The translations under genes and the position numbers were made by a program. Below the pieces are notes generated by a model. The model did not search any database. It saw only the letters and a list, made by a program, of their open reading frames with translations, and was not told where the DNA came from. DNA of 64,000 nt, taken from Acidobacteriota bacterium (GTDB lineage Bacteria; Acidobacteriota; Terriglobia; UBA7540). The DNA lies in contig SCRD01000007.1 in NCBI GenBank assembly GCA_004298155.1, positions 62,001 through 126,000 of the forward strand. Direction: 5' to 3'. Shown one piece after another: positions 34,325 to 46,273 of the stretch. Numbering within the stretch: position 1 is the stretch's first letter; each line of letters begins with the position of its first letter.

Positions 34325-34519
34325 ACTAACCATCTTGAAGCGGATGCATCTCGGAGGCAATCCGATTCTTGCTCTGGGTGGCGGGGTTTCCGAATTTTTT
34401 CCACGCATCGCAACGGGAAGGACGCATGCCTCAAGTTAAATGTAAAGGGCTTCGATTGTCGCTACGGAAGGCAGCAATGCCTGGGCCAACTGACCGTAAG
34501 GCGTACCAGCGGAACTTCT

Positions 34520-35545
34520 CTACTTTAGCGGCAGCGAGACGGGCCGGCGTTCGCGTGCTGAAATTTCAGAGGCAAAGCAAATTTCGTGGGTGAGTGCGGC
34601 GTCATCCAGGTTGGCGTGGGACTCGCGATCTTCAAGGATACAATCAATAAAGTGGCTGACCTCCTGGGGAAAGGGATGATTCGCTACATCGCCACTGTCA
34701 GGAAGAACGGTGGGAATGGCCGCCCAGTTTTTCTGGCCGGGCCAGCGTCGGCTGAAGACCTCATTGTTGCGGATAGCTCCTTGGTCTCCCAACAACTGGA
34801 TGCGGAAAACATACGGCATGATGGACTCCACGGAAGAAGCCACCTTGCCGATGGTGCCGTCTTCAAACCGGACCAGCGTAAAGCTGTTAGGCTCGTACTC
34901 ATAGTGCAGGGGGTTGTCCGGGCTGGTGTTGGCGTAGGCAAAGATCTCCACGGCCTTGCGGCCCACAAACCAGCGAAGGCCGTCGACCGCATGGCACCCA
35001 CCGGTCAACAGGCTGCTGCCCGCCATCTCCTTTTTGATGTTCCAGGAATACTGTGCGTACCAGGGGCCGATGCCGTGCAAATAGTCGACTTCAGCCGCAA
35101 AGAGCTTCCCAATGAATCCGTCGGCCAGCATCGCTCGAATGGTCTCGAACAGCGGGTTCCAGCGCAGCACAAAACTGACCACGGTTTTGACTTTCGCGGC
35201 GTGAACGGCGGCCTGGAGGTCCCTCATCCCTTCCAGGTTTAAGGCCACCGGCTTTTCGATCACCAGGTGCTTGCCTGCTTTCGCCGCCGCGATGCCCTGC
35301 GGGACATGCAGATGATGGGGCGTGGCAAGCACGACAATTTGAATTCCAGGGTCGTCGAGCATCTTTTCCAGATGCTCATAGGCCCGCGCTCGCTCCAGCT
35401 TGAATTCTTCCGTCTTGGCATGGGCGCGGTCTTTATCCCGGCTGACAATGGCGCGGACCTCGGTGCGAGGGTCGGCTTCAAACGACCGGATGTATTCACC
35501 CGAAACCCATCCTGTCCCCACAATCCCCACACCCAGTTTTTCCAT
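34520..35545 (-). CDS. Gfo/Idh/MocA-family oxidoreductase
   Basis: A 341-residue NAD(P)-dependent oxidoreductase. The ATG at 35545 follows GGAGG by seven bases. The Rossmann motif G-I-V-G-T-G-W-V-S-G is at residues 7-16 and the family catalytic motif E-K-P-V-A-L-N at about 98-104. The C-terminal alpha/beta domain is full length. These enzymes oxidise or reduce sugars and inositols, or their nucleotide forms. Nothing nearby fixes the substrate. It is not part of the later polysaccharide locus, where a different family member is present. Confidence 0.88.
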   Translation of the reverse strand: MEKLGVGIVGTGWVSGEYIRSFEADPRTEVRAIVSRDKDRAHAKTEEFKLERARAYEHLEKMLDDPGIQIVVLATPHHLHVPQGIAAAKAGKHLVIEKPVALNLEGMRDLQAAVHAAKVKTVVSFVLRWNPLFETIRAMLADGFIGKLFAAEVDYLHGIGPWYAQYSWNIKKEMAGSSLLTGGCHAVDGLRWFVGRKAVEIFAYANTSPDNPLHYEYEPNSFTLVRFEDGTIGKVASSVESIMPYVFRIQLLGDQGAIRNNEVFSRRWPGQKNWAAIPTVLPDSGDVANHPFPQEVSHFIDCILEDRESHANLDDAALTHEICFASEISARERRPVSLPLK

Positions 35546-35815
35546 CTGAAGCCTCCGTTTGGTTTTTCATCATGCAGCCGCATTGCGCTGGCGGCTATTC
35601 TATCAAGGAGCGGTGTAAAGTGGCGCTCTTTTGAAAGGGCCTCCGGAATGGGTTGGTACTGGAGGGGGCAGGCTGCGCCGGGCCGTCAGAAATCCAGGCT
35701 TGATCAAACGGCATGGCGGGCAGGAAGGGAGACTCGATGCGCGAAACGCCTAACCGCCCGATCGGGTCCCGTGTTGATTGTGTGAAAGCAGCGGCTCCGC
35801 GGGCCGCCAGGCGCG

Positions 35816-36496
35816 TCAGCACTCGATGTCGTGGCGGCGGCACACGCCGGAAAGAAGATCCCAAAGTGAATTCAGGATCGTGTCTACAGCCTCGGTGACG
35901 TTGCGTGCGTCTTCCGTGTTCAGAGAGGATTCGAGCAACTCCCGCTCAACGCGTGAGTGCTCGCGATCGGCTTCAATGTGGACGCGGAAATAGCCGAGAG
36001 CGTCGGGTGTGTCCAGGCCATAAAATTTCTCAAGGCCCCCGATTTTGGATTCCGCGACTTTGGGAATTTGCGATTCATAAGCGTAAAGCGCGGCAATTCC
36101 CTGAGCGACGCTGCCTTCGCGGCAAATCCTGCGGAACGTCCGAATCAGATTCTCGGTCTCGGGCCAGAGTTCCGCGTTAGTGACCTCCTCGCGGCAGAGG
36201 CCCATCGATTCCGCGAATTGGAGCCAGAGGTCCGGGTGATTGGGATTGCCCGCTTCCTCGTCCACCAGATTGGCGAGAATGTGCCTGCGGACGCGCTGGT
36301 CTTCCGTGTGCGCATGGAGCGCTGAAAGATACGTGGGGAAAGCGGCAACATGGTGATAGTACTGCCGGGCATAGTCGCGCAAGGCAGTCCGCGGCAGTTT
36401 CCCCCGAGTCCACGCCTGATAGAAAGGGTGGAGGAGCAGGCTTCGTTCCGCAATGCGAAGCTCAATGTGTTCCAGGGCGCTGGCCGTAATGTTCAC
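35816..36496 (-). CDS. CADD-type diiron p-aminobenzoate synthase
   Basis: A 226-residue heme-oxygenase-like fold protein closely resembling chlamydial CADD, a diiron oxygenase that makes p-aminobenzoate by sacrificing its own tyrosine. The GTG at 36496 follows AAGGAG by seven bases. From recalled CADD sequence, the six metal ligands align as Glu80, His87, Glu141, His173, Asp177 and His180, each one residue below the chlamydial numbers. The sacrificial Tyr27 equals Tyr26 in H-P-F-Y-Q-A-W, and Lys152 equals Lys151 in A-E-S-K-I-G-G. This would bypass pabA/pabB/pabC in folate synthesis. The TenA and PqqC families share the fold but not this residue set. No folate genes adjoin it. Confidence 0.88.
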   Translation of the reverse strand: MNITASALEHIELRIAERSLLLHPFYQAWTRGKLPRTALRDYARQYYHHVAAFPTYLSALHAHTEDQRVRRHILANLVDEEAGNPNHPDLWLQFAESMGLCREEVTNAELWPETENLIRTFRRICREGSVAQGIAALYAYESQIPKVAESKIGGLEKFYGLDTPDALGYFRVHIEADREHSRVERELLESSLNTEDARNVTEAVDTILNSLWDLLSGVCRRHDIEC

Positions 36497-36778
36497 TCGT
36501 TTTCTCCTTCTGTCTAAAAATGCTGAGTACTGATTGATCGGTGCGGTGCCAGATTGGCGGATTATGCACGATCCGACAACTTTCTTCAACTGGATTCCGT
36601 CGGGCGGTCCGGGCCGGCAGTGCCCGGAAACACGCCGCCGGCGCCGGCGCAGGTTCATCACGGTTTTGTTGACGTGCCGACGAGATCGGTCCGGGAGCCG
36701 CTGCCGAGACGCCGTCAATGCTATTTTCCACTTCCCCGCAGGACAATAGCGGCATTCAGTACAACGTTGGAATGTCGT

Positions 36779-37192
36779 TTACGCTTTCTGGATAATCTGA
36801 TGGGTAAGCCCGCTGCTGACAAAAAGTTTACCCTCGGCGACCTGGCGAACCCCCCAGGCCAGTTCTTCCACAGCGCGGCCCTTGAGAATGTAACCGCGGG
36901 CGCCCGCCTCCAAAGCTCGCGCAACGTAGTGGTAGTCACGATGGACGGTCAGGATAATGGTGTGAGCTTCAGGGACAGACTTCCGGATGCGCCGGATAGC
37001 TTCAATGCCGTTCAGGTAGGGCATTGAAAGGTCAAGGAGAATAACGTCCGGCCGGTGCTTATGGGCGAGAGAGACAGCCTGTTCTCCATCGGCAGCCTCA
37101 ACCACAACGTTGAAACCCGCGCGCTCAAGGAGGGTCCTCAGGCTCCTGCGGACGGGCCCATTGTCGTCAGCCAGCAAGAGTCGCAACGTCAT
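36779..37192 (-). CDS. Single-domain response regulator (NarL-type receiver, no output domain)
   Basis: A 137-residue receiver domain starting at the ATG at 37192 (an upstream TTG at 37207 is possible). The acid pocket is A-D-D at residues 8-10, the phosphorylation site is Asp54 in L-L-D-L-S-M-P, the Thr is in I-I-L-T and the Lys in G-Y-I-L-K-G. The sequence stops after the linker typical of NarL/FixJ regulators (A-E-G-K-L-F-V-S-S-G-L), so the helix-turn-helix is absent. It lies 343 bp downstream of the stressosome operon's regulator and could be a phosphate sink or a remnant of a duplicated regulator. Confidence 0.82.
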   Translation of the reverse strand: MTLRLLLADDNGPVRRSLRTLLERAGFNVVVEAADGEQAVSLAHKHRPDVILLDLSMPYLNGIEAIRRIRKSVPEAHTIILTVHRDYHYVARALEAGARGYILKGRAVEELAWGVRQVAEGKLFVSSGLTHQIIQKA

Positions 37193-37207
37193 GAGAGGCT
37201 TAAGCAA

Positions 37208-37534
37208 TTTTTTCTACTCTGATCGCTCGGGTGCCCCGGTCCCAAGACGGTGTAATTTATATCTCTGAGTATTTCGGGGGCGTTAAATGTTTTCATCCCG
37301 CTGCTTAACTCTGCGCGTTATCAGCATTGCCGTACCCGGATATTCAAGGCCACAACCTTTGGTCTTACGAGCGTCAAGATTACGGGCGGACAATCGTGGC
37401 ACGGAGAACCAATTCCCAGTGCATTTGCATCGTATTCGTATGTGGAGAGAGGGGTCAATCCGGTAATAACCTTAAAAATCTCCCGGAAAGCCAGCGTGGG
37501 AATAAGGGGCGGCAACCTGGCGGTGGGCAGGAAT
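37208..37534. other. 327-bp intergenic region between two regulator genes
   Basis: No supported gene. It separates the NarL-type regulator from the receiver-only gene on the minus strand. The right part near 37208-37330 is AT-rich on the side of the receiver gene, so a separate promoter is possible. A 77-codon minus-strand open frame here has no recognisable domain. Confidence 0.3.
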
Positions 37535-38167
37535 TCAGGGCTGGACCAGGCCACGCCGGATGGCGTACCTCACGAGGCTAGCGGTTTCATGGATGTCGAG
37601 TTTCTCCATGATCCTTGTCCTGTGCGATTCCGCCGTTTTAACGCTGATGTTCAGCAGTGAGGCAACCTCTTTGGTTGTTTTTCCCTCGGCCACCAGTTGT
37701 AGGACCTGAAGTTCACGCGGACTTAGCGTATCGCTTGGAACGTCAACTTTGTTCAGATAGGCGTCGACAACTGTATCTGAAATGTCGGAGCTCAGAAAAG
37801 TCGAGCCCCTTGAAACCTCGCGGATGGCCTGGACCAGTTCGCCGGCGGCGCGACTTTTCAGGACGTAGCCCCGGATTCCCGCGCGCAGGGCCTCCAGAAC
37901 GTACTGCGCTTCTGTGTGCATGGTGAGAACGACGACTTTAGTCTGAGGGCTTATCTGGCTGATGGCCTTGGCTGCGCCGATCCCGTTCATTAACGGCATG
38001 GCCAGGTCGAGGATGGCAATATCCGGCATCAATTCCTGCGCCAGGCGGGTGGCCTGGTGGCCGTCGGCGGCTTCACCAACGACCTTGAAGCCCTCCTGCT
38101 CAAGAAGGGCCTTCAGCCCCTGGCGCACCATTTGATGATCATCTGCCAGAAGGATACGTATAGGCAT
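37535..38167 (-). CDS. NarL/FixJ-family response regulator
   Basis: A 210-residue DNA-binding response regulator. Residues 1-120 are the receiver (A-D-D at 8-10, Asp54 in A-I-L-D-L-A-M-P, Thr82, Lys in G-Y-V-L-K-S-R). Residues 145-205 form a LuxR-type helix-turn-helix (L-S-P-R-E-L-Q-V-L-Q-L-V-A-E-G and T-T-K-E-V-A-S-L-L-N). The ATG follows GGAGG and overlaps the 3' end of the histidine kinase gene by 29 bp, so the two form a coupled pair. As last strongly linked gene of the stressosome operon it is the probable transcriptional output of the pathway. Confidence 0.92.
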   Translation of the reverse strand: MPIRILLADDHQMVRQGLKALLEQEGFKVVGEAADGHQATRLAQELMPDIAILDLAMPLMNGIGAAKAISQISPQTKVVVLTMHTEAQYVLEALRAGIRGYVLKSRAAGELVQAIREVSRGSTFLSSDISDTVVDAYLNKVDVPSDTLSPRELQVLQLVAEGKTTKEVASLLNISVKTAESHRTRIMEKLDIHETASLVRYAIRRGLVQP

Positions 38168-39470
38168 CTTTTCCCTCCGATGGAACTTGAACCGAGATTT
38201 CCGTGCCTTTGCCGGGACTGGAGTTAATTATACATTCCCCGCGCAAGGGAATCAGACGTTCCCTTATGCCGATCAGCCCCAGGCCGGACCTTCCTTTCTG
38301 TCCCATGACGGATTGGACATCGAAGCCTGCCCCATCATCCGTAACGGTCAGATGAATTCTATTCTGGTCTTTCTGGATACGGATCGAAACGTGACCAGCC
38401 CTGGCGTGCTTGGTGATATTGTTCAGGGCCTCTTGAACGATACGGTAAAGGGCGACCTCCACCTGGGGTGAAATCCGCCCGCCGGTATCTCCCTCGACGG
38501 TAATAGGAATTCCAAACCGCTTCGAGACTCCCTGGGTCAGAAACTCCACCGCGGGAACCAGCCCGAGATCGTCCAGGATCGTGGGGCGCAGTTCATGGGA
38601 AAGCCGCCTCAATTCAGTTTCAATCTGTTCGATAAGTTCCTTGATCTCTCCGATGGTCTGCTGGCCGGAGGGTGGCAGGGTATTCACCATGCCATCGATC
38701 GCGATGTGGACCGAAACCAAGAGTTGGCTTGCCTCATCATGGAGCTCGTGGGCGATGTGTTTCGCGCGCTCTTCGAGGGCTTCATTCAGCCGGTGCAGAG
38801 CCTGTTCAGCACGCTTGCGTTCCGAGACGTCGCGGGCAATGCCCTGTATGCCGGTCACTTTCCCACCGTTCAGGATTGGACGGGCGCTAACCTCGACCGT
38901 AAGGGAGTGCCCGTCCCTTGTCAGAATCTCGAGCTCATGCGTCATGGGATCGCCGCCGGTCATCAGGTGTTGGAACATCTTTGCTGCTTCCTCAATATGC
39001 TCCATCGCTAGGAGATTGACCGGGATGGGAGGGGGCTCGTCCCGGCGATATCCGGTAAGTTTTTCACCAGCTCTGTTGATCGAAGTCAGCCTGCCTTCGG
39101 CGTCTGCGGTGAAAACAATGTCGTTTGCGTTTTCGAACAGCTCGCGGTAACGTTCCTCGCTGGCCTGCAAGGCGGCATTTGTTTCCCGGTAGCCACTGAT
39201 GGTCATTTCGTAAGGAGTGAGGGTTTCGATCAAAAACTTTTCGGACGCCTTCATAATAGCCGACATGTCTCCAATGTCGGAAAATTGGGAAAGGGCGCAG
39301 TTGAACGCGTCGGAATGGAGCGTGACCATCTCGATCAGGCTGATCTCCAGGCGCAGAGCGCGACGCCCCAGTTCATAGGCCTCTTCCAGCGCCACGTCAT
39401 CCTTCTTTACCAGATAGGCCCGCAGTGCTGACTCGTATTGGCGCATGAGTTCGCGCTGGCTGGCTTTCAT
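38139..39470 (-). CDS. PAS histidine kinase with RsbU-like N-terminal domain
   Basis: A 443-residue cytosolic sensor kinase with no membrane segment. Residues 1-95 resemble the N-terminal RsbT-binding domain of RsbU (Y-E-S-A-L-R-A-Y-L, E-I-S-L-I-E-M-V-T-L-H, E-K-F-L-I-E-T-L-T-P-Y-E-M). A PAS domain covers about 105-225 (F-E-N-A-N-D-I-V-F-T-A-D). The HisKA_3 helix has His244 in H-E-L-H-D-E-A-S-Q. The ATPase domain has N (E-A-L-N-N-I-T-K-H-A) and G boxes (D-D-G-A-G-F-D; G-L-G-L-I-G). It overlaps the phosphatase gene upstream and the regulator downstream, so it is translated with both. The N-terminal domain suggests RsbT switches this kinase, in place of RsbU. Confidence 0.9.
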   Translation of the reverse strand: MKASQRELMRQYESALRAYLVKKDDVALEEAYELGRRALRLEISLIEMVTLHSDAFNCALSQFSDIGDMSAIMKASEKFLIETLTPYEMTISGYRETNAALQASEERYRELFENANDIVFTADAEGRLTSINRAGEKLTGYRRDEPPPIPVNLLAMEHIEEAAKMFQHLMTGGDPMTHELEILTRDGHSLTVEVSARPILNGGKVTGIQGIARDVSERKRAEQALHRLNEALEERAKHIAHELHDEASQLLVSVHIAIDGMVNTLPPSGQQTIGEIKELIEQIETELRRLSHELRPTILDDLGLVPAVEFLTQGVSKRFGIPITVEGDTGGRISPQVEVALYRIVQEALNNITKHARAGHVSIRIQKDQNRIHLTVTDDGAGFDVQSVMGQKGRSGLGLIGIRERLIPLRGECIINSSPGKGTEISVQVPSEGKDAYTYPSGR

Positions 39471-40084
39471 CGCGGCCTCCCATGAATTGTGGCGACCAGC
39501 ACCAGAGCGTCGTCAGTGTCCAATCCGTCACGCGCAAGAATGCCTTCTGCGGTTTTTGCAGGCATCTCGAAAAGGACCATCCTGTCCTCGAATCCGCGCC
39601 GGATCCCGTCCGTTGCGAGGACCAGAGTGTCCCCGCTGCCGATCTTCAAGGCGGAGGTGCGCAGTGGGGGCAGGCTTGCGCCGAGGACTCCGGACGACAA
39701 TAACAGGGACTCCTTCGTGGTTTTTCCGCCAGGCATGGAACGCACCAGGACGCCTTCAACGTTGCCCACGCCAACCCATTCCATGGAGCTTTCAAGATGG
39801 TTGAGGATGGCCATGGTCATGACGGCCCCGCGCGCCTGGCGCAATCTCAGGTTGCAATTCTCGAGCACTTGGACCAGAGGTTTATGAGAATATTCCTCCA
39901 CTGTCTCCAGAGCGAGCCGCGCGGCTTCCGCAGCCGCTGCGCCATGACCCAACCCGTCAGCGACCGCAACCAGGGTACTATCCCCAAGTGCCTTCACCAG
40001 ATGCATGTCGCCTGACAGAGTTTCGCCCGCCTTAGGCCTTTCCGCCGCCCCCCATTCAACGAGGTGTGAAATCATGACTTCCAT
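39467..40084 (-). CDS. RsbX/SpoIIE-type protein phosphatase
   Basis: A 205-residue PP2C/SpoIIE-type phosphatase of single-domain form. The first metal motif is A-V-A-D-G-L-G-H-G (residues 41-49) and the later one is L-A-T-D-G-I-R-R-G; a T-D-D-A-L-V-L-V-A end closes the domain. RsbX in Bacillus resets the stressosome by removing phosphate from RsbR and RsbS. The position here, overlapping rsbT by 13 bp and the kinase by 4 bp, fits that job. It lacks the N-terminal extension of RsbU, so it is not the RsbT-activated phosphatase. Two nearby ATGs at the start make the first residues uncertain. Confidence 0.87.
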   Translation of the reverse strand: MEVMISHLVEWGAAERPKAGETLSGDMHLVKALGDSTLVAVADGLGHGAAAAEAARLALETVEEYSHKPLVQVLENCNLRLRQARGAVMTMAILNHLESSMEWVGVGNVEGVLVRSMPGGKTTKESLLLSSGVLGASLPPLRTSALKIGSGDTLVLATDGIRRGFEDRMVLFEMPAKTAEGILARDGLDTDDALVLVATIHGRPR

Positions 40085-40482
40085 TTGATCGTAGTCACCG
40101 TTGTCCCACGTCCCTTGTGGGAAACGATGGCAAACTCATCCATCATTCGGCGAACGCCCGGCAAGCCTAGGCCCAGGCCCCCCGAAGTGGAATACCCATC
40201 TCTCAGGACGGCCTCGACGTCCGGGATGCCCGGGCCCTCGTCCGTCGCCTGGATAACAATACCCTTCTTTGGTTCCCTTTCAATTGCCCAGCAGATAATG
40301 TTTCCATTTTTTGCGTAGAGCAGAAGGTTTCGCGCCAGTTCCGAGATGGCTGTGGCGATCACGGCCAGTTCTGACGGGCCGAAGCCAAGATGGTCCCCCA
40401 ATTCCCGTCCTTCCTGCCGGGCGGAGAGAATGTCTTCATCCGATTTGATCGATACTCGGACTTCATTTTCCGCGCTGGCCAT
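40072..40482 (-). CDS. rsbT: Stressosome switch kinase RsbT
   Basis: A 136-residue GHKL-type serine/threonine kinase. It matches RsbT over its length: A-I-S-E-L-A-R-N (N box), T-D-E-G-P-G-I-P-D (G1) and S-T-S-G-G-L-G-L-G-L-P-G-V-R-R-M-M-D-E-F (G2). In Bacillus RsbT phosphorylates RsbS and RsbR when stress is sensed, leaves the stressosome and binds RsbU. Here the overlap with rsbS (20 bp) and with the phosphatase gene (13 bp) keeps the usual R-S-T-X order. No RsbU, RsbV, RsbW or sigma-B gene is in the window. Confidence 0.95.
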   Translation of the reverse strand: MASAENEVRVSIKSDEDILSARQEGRELGDHLGFGPSELAVIATAISELARNLLLYAKNGNIICWAIEREPKKGIVIQATDEGPGIPDVEAVLRDGYSTSGGLGLGLPGVRRMMDEFAIVSHKGRGTTVTTIKWKS

Positions 40483-40843
40483 GGTCCATCCGTTTCGTCT
40501 TCCGGTTCATGTACTCAAGCCCTTCTTCCAAGTCGAGTACCGTTGCAACTCCTTCCAATTTGAGACCCAACTGGACCATTGAAAAAGCTACCTCGGGCTG
40601 GATGCCGACGATCACTGTATGCGCCCCACGCAATCTGATCATGGTGGCGATGTCGCTGAGCGTTCTGCATGCGAATGAGTCGAGAACGTCCAGCGCTGTG
40701 ACATCGATGATCACGCCTCTGGACCGGTAGGCCCCCACTTTTTCTGTCAAAGAATCCCGCAGACTGATAAGGTCGGCGTCCCGCAAGGCCGCCTGTACTG
40801 AAGCGATGAGGTAATGTCCTTGCTTGAGGATTGGGACTTGCAT
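40463..40843 (-). CDS. rsbS: Stressosome STAS protein RsbS
   Basis: A 126-residue stand-alone STAS domain. The phosphorylated serine of RsbS (Ser59 in Bacillus) corresponds to Ser56 in V-L-D-S-F-A-C-R. The strand V-I-I-D-V-T-A-L-D and the V-G-I-Q-P-E-V-A segment are characteristic. RsbS forms the icosahedral stressosome core with RsbR and holds RsbT until phosphorylated. The gene begins three bases after rsbR ends and overlaps rsbT. Confidence 0.95.
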   Translation of the reverse strand: MQVPILKQGHYLIASVQAALRDADLISLRDSLTEKVGAYRSRGVIIDVTALDVLDSFACRTLSDIATMIRLRGAHTVIVGIQPEVAFSMVQLGLKLEGVATVLDLEEGLEYMNRKTKRMDHGQRGK

Positions 40844-40846
40844 GGT

Positions 40847-41752
40847 TTACCTTCCTTCCACCTCATCGTCAGAAGGGTCGCCCACGCGGGTCACTCTGAA
40901 GCCCAGCAGCCGGTCAGCCTCCTCGATTCCACCGCGCAGATCGCAAACCGTGCACATCTTGGTTAAGTCGACACCGATTGTAACCAGCGTCTGGGCAATC
41001 TCTGGTGATAACCCTGTAACAATGGCTGCTGCTCCCAACAAGCGGGCTGCTTCGACCGTGAGGACGAGGTGGTTAGCGACGGTGGAGTTGATGGACGGAA
41101 CTCCGGTAACATCGATCACCACCACCTTGGCGCGGTTGGCGCGGATGCCACGCAGGAGCTGGCCGGTCAACTGGCGCGCCCGCTGTGGATCGATGACGCC
41201 GACGATGGGCAGAATGAGCAACCCCTCGCGGACAGGCAGTACCGGGGTCGAGAGCTCCCGGATGGCGTCCTGTTGCTGGTGAATGATTCTCTCGCGCTGG
41301 TGAACGAATCCCACGGCCACTGTCACCGTAATCCGGCGCGCGGCCGGCTCAAAGGCGTCCAGCATACGGCTGAGCGAACCCACGCTGGATTGGCATTTTA
41401 CGAAAAGTGACCTCAATAACACGTCTCGGAGGAGAAGGACGATTCCTATGACTTCGTGGGTTTCCACGCCCCGGGGAATGATCCGCTCGGAGAGGTTGTG
41501 CGCATAAGCCTCCAAGGCTTCGACGGCGCCGGTTTCCAGAACGTCTACGTAATTATCGTAGATCGACGTCGTCTCAGTCAGGATCTCCTCTTCGCTCATC
41601 GCCGTTAGAAGCCGCGCTTCGGTAATGCGGCGCGCCCATTCTTCCCGTAGCCCGGTTCTGTTTTTGCGCAGATGGGCAACAAGTTCAGGGAAGATATCGG
41701 AGGCCCCGCCTTGAGACCCGGCCCGTAAATTTCTCTTCCTGGCTGCAGGCAT
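40847..41752 (-). CDS. rsbR: Stressosome sensor RsbR
   Basis: A 301-residue RsbR-type protein. The N-terminal half (residues 20-160) is a helical RsbRD-like sensor (L-R-E-E-W-A-R-R-I, Y-D-N-Y-V-D-V-L-E), not a globin-like fold. The C-terminal half is a STAS domain (V-V-I-D-V-T-G-V-P-S-I-N-S-T-V-A; L-S-P-E-I-A-Q-T-L). The residue equal to Thr205 of Bacillus RsbRA is Ser223; Thr169 in L-S-T-P matches Thr171. It is the first gene of the operon, with GGAGAG upstream of the ATG. It would sense an input, still unknown, and pass it to RsbT. Confidence 0.93.
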   Translation of the reverse strand: MPAARKRNLRAGSQGGASDIFPELVAHLRKNRTGLREEWARRITEARLLTAMSEEEILTETTSIYDNYVDVLETGAVEALEAYAHNLSERIIPRGVETHEVIGIVLLLRDVLLRSLFVKCQSSVGSLSRMLDAFEPAARRITVTVAVGFVHQRERIIHQQQDAIRELSTPVLPVREGLLILPIVGVIDPQRARQLTGQLLRGIRANRAKVVVIDVTGVPSINSTVANHLVLTVEAARLLGAAAIVTGLSPEIAQTLVTIGVDLTKMCTVCDLRGGIEEADRLLGFRVTRVGDPSDDEVEGR

Positions 41753-42239
41753 GGGAGTTTTCTCTCCTTCGCTCCGGTTAATTCTTATCCCGCCTCCCCA
41801 CAGATTTGCGCCGTAACTGCGTGCGCTGACTGACGACGCAGGCCAAACAGGCCTGTGTAGTGGCGAAGTACAGAACGCACCGTCTCTCCTAGGACTTCGG
41901 TCCCCTCGGAGCCGGGTAGCCGATCGGATGGTATTGTGTTTGTCAGCATCCTGGCGAAATGCGGATGCATTCCATGGATGCTATCTGGCGCTCCTGCCGC
42001 CGCTTCATCGTTAAGAGTTTTGCCCTTTCTGGGGCAACGTGTCAAATCCTTTTAAATTGAAAGACTCAGCCTACGCTCACGCCTGCGTCCTGAACAATTG
42101 TACCGGCGCCGGAAGCGGTTGGAAAGCACCGGCAACGCACCTGTTCTTCCAAGCGGGCTGGGCTTGCAATGTGCTGGTCCAAATAGAGGTGTCGCTTTCC
42201 CAGCTCTGCAAAACATTTCCGCAAACGGAAGAAGTTTGC
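41753..42239. promoter_or_regulatory. 487-bp divergent region between stressosome operon and polysaccharide locus
   Basis: This separates rsbR (minus) from the first AAA+ regulator (plus), so it should hold the promoters of both. A minus-strand open frame of 86 codons (41785-42045) exists but starts with TTG, has poor ribosome-binding spacing and no recognisable domain. Upstream in-frame sequence of the regulator is not protein-like, which favours the ATG at 42240. Confidence 0.35.
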
Positions 42240-43475
42240 ATGCGGCCGGCTTCCAAAAGCAACCCTATCCATTGTGAAATCTTCGGCGCGCTAGAGTTGC
42301 AAGCCACACTACACACGGATGTTACAGAAGTGTTACGGATTTCGAATTTGACGGAGCTTTCACCCGGCCGGCATTTGGCAGGAGATGTGCTGTCGAAGTC
42401 CCCCCGTAGGTGTCATGAAGAGGTGACGCAAGTGGCCGAAGAGATAACGGCTATGACAACCCGCTGTGGGCTCCTCCCTCCGGAGCCAGTAGTGCTTGGC
42501 ACATCATGCGCTATGAAGGAAGTGAGGGACAAACTCGAAAAGATTGCATTCACTGACGTTCCGGTCCTGATCCGGGGAGAAGCGGGCAGCGGAAAAGAAG
42601 TTCTGGCCAGGCTTATCCACAAGAAGCATCCCGGTGATTATACTCCTTTCCACAAGGTAAGCCCCGCCGGGCGGGCCGGATGGCGAAAGAGTGATAGTTT
42701 CGTGTTGTCGCAGGAAGAAGTTAACGGAGCCAACGGAAGTAGCCAATATCTGCAGGAAGGCCCAGGACGGCCAGGATGCATTGGGACATTATTTTTTGAT
42801 GAGGTCGCGGAGCTGAATCCTGCCTCCCAGCGGAATCTGACGCATTTATTGCACGATGATCGGCCTTCGGGTATAGGCCTTTCCGATTACCCTCCTCCGC
42901 TCTTCCGTGTGATCTGCAGCACCAGGCATGATCTCGAACGGGAAATGAGCCTGGGAAATTTTCGTGAAGACCTCTTCTATTCCATCAACATTGTTAGCCT
43001 GCACCTTCCACCCTTACGAGCACGGTGTGAAGATATCCCAGGTCTGGCGTGGTACTTCTGGGAGAGCTATCGGGAGGAATTGAATTCGAGCACTCCGGCG
43101 CCTGCGACTCGCCTGGTCGATGTCCTTCAAGGCTACGGCTGGCCGGGGAATATCCGCGAGCTCGCAGGTGTAATGAAGCGTTATGTCCTTCTGGGCTCCG
43201 CTGACAAAATTGTCGAGGAATTGGCTACAAGGACGGCGCTGCCAGGGGGGTGTAAGACCTCTTCCACGCGAGGCATCTCCCTCAAGAAACTGGCGAAACA
43301 GGAAGCACAGGAACTTGAACGGAAAATTATTTTCAAAACACTTCGTGAAACACAGTGGAACCGGAAGCAGGCAGCTCGAGCGCTAAATATCAGTTACCGA
43401 ACTCTGCTTTACAAGATCAAGGAGGCCGGAGTGCCTCCAAAAAGAATTTTCGTGAAGCGGGAGACAGAAAATTGA
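42240..43475 (+). CDS. AAA+/Fis-type transcriptional regulator lacking the GAFTGA loop (paralog 1)
   Basis: A 411-residue regulator built like sigma-54 activators. The ATG at 42240 has GGAAG upstream. Residues 80-320 form an AAA+ domain with Walker A G-E-A-G-S-G-K-E, Walker B T-L-F-F-D-E-V-A-E-L and the L-P-P-L-R-A-R-C-E-D-I-P segment. The C-terminal Fis-type helix-turn-helix is N-R-K-Q-A-A-R-A-L-N-I-S-Y-R-T. The stretch where E-L-F-G-H-x-x-G-A-F-T-G-A should be reads G-R-A-G-W-R-K-S-D-S-F instead, so contact with sigma-54 in the usual way is doubtful. No receiver or GAF domain precedes the ATPase. It heads the polysaccharide locus and overlaps the next small gene by four bases. Confidence 0.85.
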   Translation: MRPASKSNPIHCEIFGALELQATLHTDVTEVLRISNLTELSPGRHLAGDVLSKSPRRCHEEVTQVAEEITAMTTRCGLLPPEPVVLGTSCAMKEVRDKLEKIAFTDVPVLIRGEAGSGKEVLARLIHKKHPGDYTPFHKVSPAGRAGWRKSDSFVLSQEEVNGANGSSQYLQEGPGRPGCIGTLFFDEVAELNPASQRNLTHLLHDDRPSGIGLSDYPPPLFRVICSTRHDLEREMSLGNFREDLFYSINIVSLHLPPLRARCEDIPGLAWYFWESYREELNSSTPAPATRLVDVLQGYGWPGNIRELAGVMKRYVLLGSADKIVEELATRTALPGGCKTSSTRGISLKKLAKQEAQELERKIIFKTLRETQWNRKQAARALNISYRTLLYKIKEAGVPPKRIFVKRETEN

Positions 43476-43873: not shown

Positions 43874-44558
43874 GATCGCCTGGCAGTCCGGAGAAGCTCC
43901 GGCCGTGGCCGGGTGTTAGGGCGTCAGATCTCCTCAATTTACCTGAGTCTGCCCTGTCTAATTTCCTTGCCAAGTTCTCAGGTTTAAATGATCAAGCGGT
44001 GAGTTGTGTAAGGGCGAGATTATACCCGATTGATAGCTTTGGGCGAATGTGCAACCTTTTTCGTCCATCTCCCTTTATTCATTCCTTTTCAATCGAAAGT
44101 AGCGCATTAAGCGGTTTGAAGTTACAGCCGTTAGTAATCCAGCCCGCAATCGAAACGAAGTGCAAGACAGTTCTTAGGCATGAATAAGTTTGCATGATGT
44201 GAAGCTGGCTTCCGGACTGATCACGAGGACTGCAAGAGTTTTCACTCGATGCGGATGGGTTCTAACCTGTTGCAATGCATAGTGTTAAAGGTATACGGCG
44301 CTCGAAGGCTCCAATCAAGTGGGTTCTCGGAAGCTGGTCTCGTTTTGGCATGTCATGTGCGAGCAGAAGCTTGAGTAAGCTTCGCCGTGGTACCTGGCAG
44401 GAGTGAAGTTTTGGGTTTTCATTCCTCAGGATTCCTGAAGTGGGTTGGGTTTCTTCAGGAACTGTAAAGCGAGAGTTTCCAGGTATGGATCGGAAAATTC
44501 CCGACGCTTGCCGCTCAACCTGGCAGCGAAGAAAAGGAACAGCGCATGGGGGGGTACG
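43874..44558. promoter_or_regulatory. 685-bp intergenic region upstream of the second regulator
   Basis: No gene is supported. The segment from about 43960 to 44200 is less GC-rich than its neighbours. A sigma-54-like site is at 44346-44361, about 200 bp before the second regulator. An AAGCTT-GAGT-AAGCTT direct repeat lies at 44368-44383. Confidence 0.4.
44346..44361 (+). promoter_or_regulatory. Candidate sigma-54 (-24/-12) promoter
   Basis: TGGCATG-TCAT-GTGC keeps the GG and GC dinucleotides exactly ten bases apart, with TGGCA at -24. The -12 element is imperfect (GTGCG rather than TTGCA). Position and orientation suit the second AAA+ regulator gene. It rests on a single match by eye. Confidence 0.3.
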
Positions 44559-45617
44559 TTGAACACTTTTGATAGCAGGCTGGATTTTCGTCAGCCACTT
44601 CCCTCCAAGGTAGCGATTTTTGGCCAGACCGAAGGGATGAAAGGGTTATGGCAGGTTGCGGAAAGGGTTGCTAGCGCCAGTGTTCCAATCCTGATTGTTG
44701 GGGAAAGGGGAACCGGGAAAGAGGTCTTTGCGCGATTTATTCACTCCTGCAGTCCCGGGCCCAATGCGCAGTTCCTGAAATGGAGTCTGCCGGTTCCAGA
44801 CGGGCACACAAGCGATGGAATCGTCTTTCGCCCGGAAACCGAGGGGCTTGTCGGCGAAGAAGATTTTGGCGGCAATGTAAATTCCGTCCGGCGGTTGTGC
44901 ACGCTGTTTGTTGATGAAGTATCCGAGGCGGGTCCTGAGCGCCAATTGGAGCTGTTGCAGTTGGTTCAGGGATCTAGACCCTTTATTTCCAGAGACGGGA
45001 TAAACATTCCCGTTTCTCTGCGGGTCATTGCCACAAGCACCCGCGATCTGGAACAGGAAGTGGCCGCCAGGAGCTTTCGTGCCGACCTTTTTTCCGTCCT
45101 CAGTGCAGTGACGCTGCGTCTGCCTCCGTTGCGGGAGCGCAGAGAGGATATTTCAGAGCTTGCCAACTATTTCTGGCGGATTTACAGCGAGAGGTTTGGT
45201 TGCCAGCCGGTACCTCCAGGTCCACAGGTGATCGAGCGTCTTCAGCAGCACAACTGGCCGGGGAATATTCGCGAGCTGGAAAACGTGATGAAGCGCTATG
45301 TGGTCCTTGGGGCCGAGGGAATCAAGGGAACCGGGCACGCCGAGCAGCTCCGGCGGCCGGTCGAATTTGCGCCTTCGAGCGGCCATCCCGTCTCCCTAAA
45401 AGAGGCAACCCGTGAGGCTGCTCTGGCACTGGAGCGCAAAATTATTTTTAAGACTTTGCAGGAGACCCAGTGGAACCGCAGGCGAACGGCGCGGGTGTTG
45501 AACATCAGCTATCGCGCGCTTCTTTACAAGATCAAGGCGGCCGGGCTGATGTCTGAAGAGCAGAAGGCCAGCGTGCGCGTCAGTGAGATTCTGAAGGCGA
45601 GTGAAAACGCTGCGTAA
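44559..45617 (+). CDS. AAA+/Fis-type transcriptional regulator lacking the GAFTGA loop (paralog 2)
   Basis: About 352 residues, paralogous to the protein at 42240-43475. I use the TTG at 44559 with a G-run five bases upstream; the frame is open to 44445 and an ATG at 44637 would be too far inside the AAA+ domain. Walker A is G-E-R-G-T-G-K-E and Walker B T-L-F-V-D-E-V-S-E-A; L-P-P-L-R-E-R-R-E-D-I-S is intact. GAFTGA is absent, with P-V-P-D-G-H-T-S-D-G-I in its place. The C-terminal helix-turn-helix, W-N-R-R-R-T-A-R-V-L-N-I-S-Y-R, is nearly identical to that of paralog 1, suggesting overlapping DNA targets. It lies 14 bp before the NusG-like gene. Confidence 0.85.
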   Translation: MNTFDSRLDFRQPLPSKVAIFGQTEGMKGLWQVAERVASASVPILIVGERGTGKEVFARFIHSCSPGPNAQFLKWSLPVPDGHTSDGIVFRPETEGLVGEEDFGGNVNSVRRLCTLFVDEVSEAGPERQLELLQLVQGSRPFISRDGINIPVSLRVIATSTRDLEQEVAARSFRADLFSVLSAVTLRLPPLRERREDISELANYFWRIYSERFGCQPVPPGPQVIERLQQHNWPGNIRELENVMKRYVVLGAEGIKGTGHAEQLRRPVEFAPSSGHPVSLKEATREAALALERKIIFKTLQETQWNRRRTARVLNISYRALLYKIKAAGLMSEEQKASVRVSEILKASENAA

Positions 45618-45631
45618 TAGAGGACCAGGAA

Positions 45632-46273
45632 ATGGCTCTTTTCAACGTTCCATTTGATAACGCCGCCGCCCCAGACATAAGCGCGATGTGGTACGCGGTA
45701 CACACTCGCCATCAGCATGAGAAGCTGGTTGCCCGCACGCTGGCCAATAAAGGGTTTGAGGTATTTCTTCCTCTTTACTCGGAAGTTCGCCAATGGCGCG
45801 ACCGGACAAAGATGGTGGAATTACCCCTTTTTTCCTGCTACGTCTTTCTTCGCGGCGATCTTGACCGCCGCCTCGCCATCCTCACCACGCCTGGAGTTCA
45901 CGGCATGGTGGCTACGGCGGGGAAGCTTGCGGGAATTCCGGAAGAGGAAATTCAGGCGGTGAGAAGCGTTATCGAGAGCCGTGTCAATGTGGAACCGCAC
46001 CCATTTCTCAATTGTGGCGACCTCGTCCGTGTGAAGTATGGCGCTCTGGGCGGCCTGGAAGGGTTCCTGGTGCGGAAGAAAGGGCAGGCTCGGCTGATTA
46101 TTTCGGTGACGTTGCTTGAGAGATCAGTTGCCGCGGAAGTAGATGCAAGTGCCGTTGAACGGCTCGCAGGGCCGCGTGTCAGGACGGCGACCCAATTTGT
46201 TTCGGTCCCGATGTCCAGAGGCTGGGGCTTCAGGAATGTGCTACAGGAGCCGGCGCACACGGCTTCGTCATAG
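45632..46273 (+). CDS. NusG-like (UpxY/RfaH-type) transcription antiterminator
   Basis: A 213-residue NusG paralog. Residues 18-115 are the NGN domain (M-W-Y-A-V-H-T-R-H-Q-H-E-K-L, F-E-V-F-L-P-L-Y, L-P-L-F-S-C-Y-V-F-L-R). Residues 130-185 are a KOW-type domain (F-L-N-C-G-D-L-V-R-V-K-Y-G-A-L-G-G-L-E-G). Such specialised NusG proteins are usually the first or second gene of a long surface-polysaccharide operon and keep RNA polymerase from terminating early in it. Its position directly before the export genes supports this. The ATG has AGGA five bases upstream. It is not the housekeeping NusG, which would adjoin secE and rplK. Confidence 0.9.
   Translation: MALFNVPFDNAAAPDISAMWYAVHTRHQHEKLVARTLANKGFEVFLPLYSEVRQWRDRTKMVELPLFSCYVFLRGDLDRRLAILTTPGVHGMVATAGKLAGIPEEEIQAVRSVIESRVNVEPHPFLNCGDLVRVKYGALGGLEGFLVRKKGQARLIISVTLLERSVAAEVDASAVERLAGPRVRTATQFVSVPMSRGWGFRNVLQEPAHTASS

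Follow-up and report, generated by a model that had tools for sequence, protein, structure and literature searches.

An operon in a 64,000-nucleotide stretch of an Acidobacteriota genome (assembly GCA_004298155.1, contig SCRD01000007.1, positions 62,001 to 126,000; here called the window) appears to encode a stressosome that has a two-component system as its output, with RsbT switching a histidine kinase by way of an RsbU_N domain. We put the probability of this reading at about 0.7. The operon comprises seven open genes on the minus strand, positions 36779 to 41752, that encode in order RsbR, RsbS, RsbT, an RsbX-like phosphatase, the histidine kinase, a NarL-type response regulator and a lone receiver. 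Switching of the kinase by RsbT is supported by the observations that follow, and is something that we infer.

The kinase (38139..39470, minus strand) is the key to the proposal. An earlier, sequence-only reading of the window had likened its N-terminus to the RsbT-binding domain of RsbU, and a hidden Markov model search against PF08673 bears this out: kinase residues 11-89 (39204..39440, minus strand), the presumed RsbT docking and dimer domain, score 51.0 bits (E 1.6e-13), so far above the cut-off of 25.5 that a chance match is excluded. Pfam also finds the PAS (residues 106-215) and HisKA_3 domains that had been expected to follow, and then HATPase_c. A C-terminal SpoIIE/PPM phosphatase domain is absent by Pfam; because HisKA_3 and HATPase_c stand in its place, the protein is not an RsbU. 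The hallmarks of a two-component system are present: the kinase has the phospho-acceptor His244, the DxxxQ motif (Asp245 and Gln249) and N and G boxes, and the regulator has Asp54 and a GerE helix-turn-helix (HTH). His244, Asp245, Gln249 and Asn351 are invariant in 23/23 kinases, as are Asp378, Gly380 and Gly382. In the rest of the genome, which is 97.6% complete, there is no other RsbU_N match.

The genes upstream of the kinase are those of a stressosome. RsbR (40847..41752, minus strand), the co-antagonist, has a helical, RsbRD_N-like N-terminal domain, whose Pfam match of 22.4 bits falls slightly under the cut-off of 24.3, and a STAS domain (45.9 bits); among solved structures, the Listeria RsbR chains match it at 117 bits. 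RsbS (40463..40843, minus strand) is a STAS scaffold (48.3 bits; Listeria RsbS, E 3e-26), and its phospho-acceptor, the Ser56 singled out by the sequence-only reading, aligns with Ser56 of Listeria RsbS. RsbT (40072..40482, minus strand), a GHKL serine kinase and switch protein (HATPase_c, 41.6 bits), has the sequence boxes that the sequence-only reading noticed, with catalytic residues Glu48, Asn52, Asp81 and Gly85 invariant in all 16 alignment rows; it is 52% identical to B. subtilis RsbT. The RsbX-like protein (39467..40084, minus strand) is a single-domain PP2C/SpoIIE phosphatase (SpoIIE, 47.2 bits; B. subtilis RsbX, 3w40, E 9.6e-14) and is probably the reset enzyme. Listeria RsbR and RsbS and this B. 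subtilis RsbX are the closest named relatives with solved structures. The NarL-type regulator (37535..38167, minus strand; Response_reg 105.9 bits, GerE 68.5 bits) comes directly after the kinase. All of these frames are open where the sequence-only reading had placed them, and the overlaps that it described, computed from coordinates, are 20 nucleotides (nt) for RsbS/RsbT, 13 nt for RsbT/RsbX, 4 nt for RsbX/kinase and 29 nt for kinase/regulator.

Is the association of RsbU_N kinase and stressosome found elsewhere in the phylum? PF08673 is present in 15 of 396 Acidobacteriota genomes, our own included, at 16 places. Output classes, here and below, rest on blastp against a limited set of reference proteins, with a Pfam check for 11 of these 16 proteins and a few others. 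Twelve are HisKA_3-type kinases (the window, L046, L048, L049, L050, L053-L056 and L058-L060), and two are HisKA-type (L052 and the hybrid L051). Of the remaining two, L057 is a sigma-54 activator and L047 breaks off at a contig end behind a PAS; among the 15 readable proteins there is no SpoIIE phosphatase with RsbU_N. The domain adjoins rsbT at 14 of the 16 places, and rsbR and rsbS as well at 12. The sole two places without a nearby rsbT are on kinases: the L059 match is below the PF08673 cut-off and no longer has the acidic residue for binding, and that of L060 is just on the cut-off and lacks the PFEM motif. The sigma-54 activator (L057:4080-5909) has the order RsbU_N-GAF-sigma-54 activator-HTH_8; its operon also holds rsbR, rsbS and a pair of rsbT-like genes, and the protein is a possible direct line from a stressosome to sigma-54 transcription.

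For a wider survey, an RsbT profile search of genome contigs gave at least 568 loci, of which the 80 most similar to the window RsbT were taken. With L061 dropped as identical to L055, 79 loci remained, and by blastp these are, as class counts and not frequencies, 22 HisKA_3-type, 5 HisKA-type, 23 SpoIIE-type, 17 with a stand-alone RsbU_N, 2 of other kinds and 10 that have no RsbU_N close by, a number of the last sitting on short contigs. Contig ends cut L071 (HisKA-type), L099 and L124 (stand-alone) and L083 (other); the other member of that last class, L119, is GGDEF-EAL by Pfam. The survey, the phylum set and the window were pooled for operon comparison, giving 95 loci, some of them cut by contig ends. 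Homologous operons with RsbU, RsbV and RsbW would have spoken against the sequence-only reading, but those of the kinase type lack RsbV and, one locus aside, SigB. With Halobacillus queries in blastp, RsbV relatives are found in 22/23 SpoIIE-type and 0/34 HisKA_3-type loci, and SigB relatives in 22/23 and 1/34, the one being L059 (66 bits), an orphan kinase without rsbT. RsbW relatives are found by blastp in 23/23 SpoIIE-type loci; matches of 39-40 bits, in 2/34 HisKA_3-type, 2/7 HisKA-type and 1/17 stand-alone loci, may be homologous RsbT or kinase ATPases. In 33 of the 34 HisKA_3-type loci no more than 29 nt lie between the start of a regulator gene and the end of the kinase gene, and 12 share the window's 29-nt overlap.

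How might RsbT act on such a kinase? RsbR and RsbS would hold RsbT; on stress, RsbT would phosphorylate RsbS Ser56 and be released. Free RsbT would then bind the RsbU_N dimer at the kinase N-terminus and stiffen the long helix that exits it, shifting the kinase/phosphatase balance of the HisKA_3 core at His244. The kinase would phosphorylate the NarL-type regulator at Asp54, and perhaps the lone receiver at Asp59, the regulator would carry the signal to DNA, and RsbX would reset the system by dephosphorylating RsbS. We infer RsbT release, RsbT-kinase binding, phosphotransfer and target genes, and take the effect of RsbT to be activation because that is how it acts on RsbU. The PAS domain interrupts the coupling helix and would be a second kinase input, and its presence suggests a second signal.

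The geometry of the kinases bears on this scheme. RsbU_N is directly continuous with the HisKA_3 helix in 24 of the 34 HisKA_3-type kinases, and in all 24 of these insert-free proteins (23 by script, L138 by eye) exactly 32 residues separate the Glu of the PFEM motif from the phospho-accepting His, as expected for a stiff continuous helix. In the other ten the spacing is 92-561 residues. The window kinase, at 156, owes its spacing to the inserted PAS, as do two Rokubacteria proteins at 157 (L062 and L070). An AlphaFold2 model of the N-domain alone has four helices and a mean predicted local distance difference test (pLDDT) score of 94.2, and in a model of the whole kinase the pLDDT is 88-96 in most blocks. 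The last N-domain helix is predicted to be unbroken over residues 66-112 or 66-114, running from RsbU_N into the PAS; because the predicted template modelling score is 0.40, the domain arrangement of the whole-kinase model is not to be trusted. RsbT has been found to activate RsbU by ordering its linker into a coiled coil (PMC12143880), and the modelled continuous helix together with the fixed spacing fits such a mechanism.

The known contacts between RsbT and RsbU_N (PMC12143880) give a mixed picture. Glu24 of RsbU, which binds RsbT, has an acidic counterpart in 84 of 85 RsbU_N domains; the window kinase has Asp25 there. RsbU Tyr28 is conserved in 22/23 SpoIIE-type loci and in 0/34 of the HisKA_3-type; the Arg91 position is Arg or Lys in 31 of the 34 HisKA_3-type kinases. 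RsbT Arg19 is conserved in 93/93 sequences and Arg23 in 92/93. Several results nevertheless count against our reading. The window kinase has Glu for Tyr28 and Gln for Arg91, so that two known contacts are lost, and on the RsbT side Asp92, which pairs with Arg91, has an acidic residue (Asp or Glu) at its position in no more than 20/32 kinase-type loci. Arg19 and Arg23 are conserved equally in the 10/10 loci without a nearby RsbU_N, and in all five such loci whose genomes were searched (L067, L080, L087, L107 and L116) RsbU_N is absent from the genome; the two arginines therefore do not discriminate, and their conservation was rejected as a test of the interface. The fold comparisons do not point to RsbU in particular, which for a helical bundle decides nothing either way: the N-domain model is closer to the C-terminal domain of KaiA (Z 9.4, root-mean-square deviation (rmsd) 2.6 over 87 residues) than to RsbU (2j70; Z 7.7, rmsd 4.6 over 72); in Foldseek the RsbU structure 1w53 ranks ninth with E 0.88, and no match reached E 0.001. 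The PAS insert, moreover, separates the RsbT site from the catalytic core. A comparison of distance trees for 30 loci was also rejected as interface evidence: RsbT correlates with RsbU_N at r 0.79 and with the kinase core at the same 0.79 (partial correlations 0.45 and 0.55), and such correlated distances, as a measure taken from sequences, show operon co-inheritance and not an interface. What emerges from the sequences is thus a conserved unit, not a proven interface.

What else might the operon do? One possibility is that RsbT phosphorylates the kinase or the regulator on Ser/Thr rather than acting as an allosteric ligand. RsbT keeps all of its catalytic residues, and Ser/Thr phosphorylation has been proposed for proteins without RsbU_N, for example in Vibrio vulnificus, where no binding of VvRsbT to VvD1 could be detected (PMC9237108). 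The window kinase does have RsbU_N, whereas none is detected in the V. vulnificus downstream kinase, and RsbU itself, the model case, is activated by the binding of RsbT and not by phosphorylation (PMC12143880), so we think this alternative unlikely. We give about the same small weight to the proposal that RsbU_N is a dimerisation module only, the stressosome and the kinase sharing an operon without being wired together, or the kinase sensing through its PAS alone. RsbU_N is indeed the dimer domain of RsbU (PMC12143880), RsbT co-varies with RsbU_N no more than it does with the kinase core, and 2 of the 16 RsbU_N matches in the phylum are on kinases without a nearby rsbT. Against it stand the other 14, the loss of the acidic residue or the PFEM motif in those two exceptions, and the presence of RsbU_N next to rsbT on many unrelated outputs.

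Could the real target of RsbT lie elsewhere in the genome? The sequence-only reading had found no RsbU, RsbV, RsbW or sigma-B; this holds at the locus, and related genes lie elsewhere in the genome. Contig C17 carries an RsbW-like ATPase (Pfam); next to it are a protein judged STAS-like by eye and a sigma factor that has regions 2-4, from which it follows that ordinary partner switching takes place elsewhere in the cell, though by the SigB/F/G model no sigma factor of the genome is above the cut-off (best 132 versus 234.35 bits). Besides the window RsbX there are nine further SpoIIE matches, none at the RsbU_N place. One of these phosphatases might be the true RsbT target, feeding the RsbW/RsbV-like pair and sigma factor of C17. 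The genome's only RsbU_N match, however, lies on the kinase, and we regard this as the least probable of the alternatives, and a very improbable one. RsbT-controlled switching of the window kinase remains our preferred explanation.

The RsbR of the window departs from its Gram-positive relatives at the sites of phosphorylation. Thr175 of Listeria RsbR, which we take to be equivalent to Thr171 of B. subtilis, is replaced by Pro189 and Thr209 by Ser223, so that both phospho-threonines are gone. In a gap-free alignment of the Thr175 site, Thr is present in 21/21 SpoIIE-type loci and Pro in 30 of the 31 HisKA_3-type loci with RsbR (Ser in L054), and Pro is also found in L052, a HisKA-type locus. 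The Thr209 site is Thr in 21/21 SpoIIE-type loci, and in the 31 HisKA_3-type loci it is Ser (15), Ala (7), Val (5), Thr (2), Leu (1) or Asn (1). RsbS Ser56 is Ser in all 85 loci with RsbS, including 31/31 of the kinase type. In a tree of 61 RsbR STAS regions, from which both phospho-sites had been removed, the 30 proline rows form one side of a single branch with support 99/76, and the L054 RsbR adjoins them; in 98% of 200 bootstrap trees the proline rows have one origin. The proline trait therefore marks one lineage that has crossed phyla, and not many independent events. Named members belong to Acidobacteriota, Rokuibacteriota, Pseudomonadota, Bacteroidota, Ignavibacteriota and Eiseniibacteriota; most are metagenome-assembled, and single placements may be binning errors. 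The exact place of the window RsbR within the group is unsure because of its long branch (0.94) and odd composition. For RsbRs that share 60% identity or more with that of the window, proline and kinase output are associated by a Fisher test (30/1 versus 1/28, p 1e-14), but this result was set aside, since trait and output change in only two and one steps on the tree, giving at most two independent pairs.

One might think that loss of the RsbR threonines would disqualify these proteins as stressosome members. It does not, as the sites vary outside the Bacilli. In Actinobacteria the RsbRs of the stand-alone type, which are as similar to the window's as many kinase-type RsbRs are, have Glu at Thr209 in 14 of 17 cases, and in V. 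brasiliensis the RsbR phospho-sites are not conserved; in V. vulnificus they are Ser199 and Thr233 (PMC9237108). The excerpts of PMC9237108 and PMC12143880 hold no statement of an RsbR change in kinase-type operons, and to that extent the change is an addition to what is in print for RsbU_N kinases. A tentative proposal, which we consider possible but do not favor, is that the HisKA_3-kinase operons are a distinct stressosome lineage, passed among at least six phyla as an rsbR-S-T-X-kinase-regulator unit. In this lineage Thr175 would have become fixed as proline, Thr209 would often be unphosphorylatable, RsbS Ser56 would be the sole conserved phospho-switch, the internal brake of the Gram-positive systems would have been dismantled, and RsbT would act on a histidine kinase as its reversible allosteric ligand; the window would combine this with a PAS signal in the same kinase.

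Other features of the operon and its relatives may be noted. The stand-alone receiver at its end (36779..37207, minus strand; phospho-acceptor Asp59; Response_reg 99.8 bits) is 47% identical to the receiver of the NarL-type regulator; a tblastn search of 34501-38300 with that regulator and its HTH found no HTH remnant behind it. At about this position several related loci, for example L062, L070 and L103, encode another complete NarL-type regulator, and the lone receiver may be a shortened second regulator. On the other strand just upstream of the operon, 42039-43475, 44445-45617 and 45632-46273 encode, judged by eye, two sigma-54-activator-like proteins and a NusG/UpxY-like protein. At L055/L061:3784-4899 the kinase frame extends 244 nt into the regulator gene, which suggests a frameshift or an assembly error at the kinase 3' end.

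RsbU_N also occurs in other settings. In evenly drawn genomes it is present in 10/398 Pseudomonadota (the phylum of L065) and 18/296 Actinomycetota (the phylum of L123), on HisKA, GGDEF, HD-GYP, SpoIIE, HisKA_3 and GAF proteins or as the domain alone. Five of ten scanned proteins (L149, L150, L151, L168 and L178) have it fused to an HD-GYP-type HD_5 domain, and the gene that comes next in L149-L151 encodes another RsbU_N protein, whose end resembles a hybrid kinase. L180:919-1806 joins RsbU_N and an RsbT-like HATPase_c_2 in a single protein, upstream of a divergent rsbR. In L126, whose record is titled "uncultured archaeon", rsbR-S-T-X is followed by an RsbU_N-PAS-HisKA-HATPase-receiver hybrid kinase.

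A further arrangement is found in Actinobacteria, where a single long frame encodes a sigma factor first and RsbT at its C-terminal end. This is so in 16 of the 17 stand-alone-class loci and in L131 (in all L064, L069, L072, L076, L084-L086, L088, L096, L097, L104, L108, L123, L124, L131, L132 and L136), and in 0/66 loci of the RsbU_N-output classes. Pfam identifies Sigma70_r2, Sigma70_r4_2 and HATPase in the L069 and L123 fusions. RsbR and RsbS follow the fusion gene, and so does, in the 15 loci whose end can be read, a stand-alone RsbU_N some 100 residues long. These loci are stressosomes wired directly to a sigma factor, and in open-licence literature listings we found no report of such a fusion.

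What would the proposed wiring mean? If it is right, the stressosome is a general front end able to drive ordinary two-component signalling, and moving one small docking domain plugs one stress hub into unrelated outputs. The kinase-type lineage would be a natural test of the long debate over whether RsbR phosphorylation is needed for signalling, the site lost there being one that has been mutated by hand in B. subtilis (PMC3944199). The operon would also open stress control in Acidobacteriota to genetic study; for this phylum a search of open-licence papers on stressosomes brought up one review, on an unrelated subject.

The idea of an RsbT-switched kinase is not new, having been stated for Proteobacteria (PMC9237108, PMC12143880); the window is a clear case in another phylum. 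RSTX modules have eleven downstream architectures, HisKA/REC phosphorelays among them, and in alpha-, beta- and gammaproteobacteria some of the proteins encoded downstream carry RsbU_N (PMC9237108). Among open-licence papers the term RsbU_N turned up in two, one of them unrelated. RsbU_N proteins, including histidine kinases, have been described in rsbT operons of Proteobacteria (PMC9237108, PMC12143880), and our L065 protein, from a gammaproteobacterial groundwater genome, may be of the same kind. These operons (PMC9237108 Fig. 3; PMC12143880, AlphaFold2 model of 'NreB' MBI3545564.1) have the same RSTX genes followed by an RsbU_N kinase and regulator, and the same proposed RsbT-binding link. 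The window differs from them in phylum, in an RsbR without a globin match, in the PAS between RsbU_N and HisKA_3, and in the replacement of Thr175 by Pro. The Vibrio-type RSTX module likewise has a globin sensor on RsbR; among Pfam matches at E up to 1 there is no globin family on the window RsbR.

With the stressosome of B. subtilis and Listeria the window shares RsbR, RsbS with its Ser56, RsbT, RsbX, and RsbU_N as presumed RsbT receptor. It differs in that its output is a two-component system and not a partner-switching phosphatase, that RsbV, RsbW and SigB are absent locally, and that both RsbR phospho-threonines are replaced. A diguanylate cyclase of Moorella is under the control of RsbT and RsbU_N (Quin 2012, cited in PMC12143880), and this M. 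thermoacetica RsbU_N-GAF-GGDEF protein is likewise a case of RsbU_N on a non-phosphatase output, though there the output is cyclic-di-GMP and in the window phosphotransfer. Finally, the window shares with NreB/NreC and NarX/NarL a HisKA_3 core with DxxxQ and a GerE-type regulator, whereas its kinase takes its input through RsbU_N and PAS and is encoded inside a stressosome operon.

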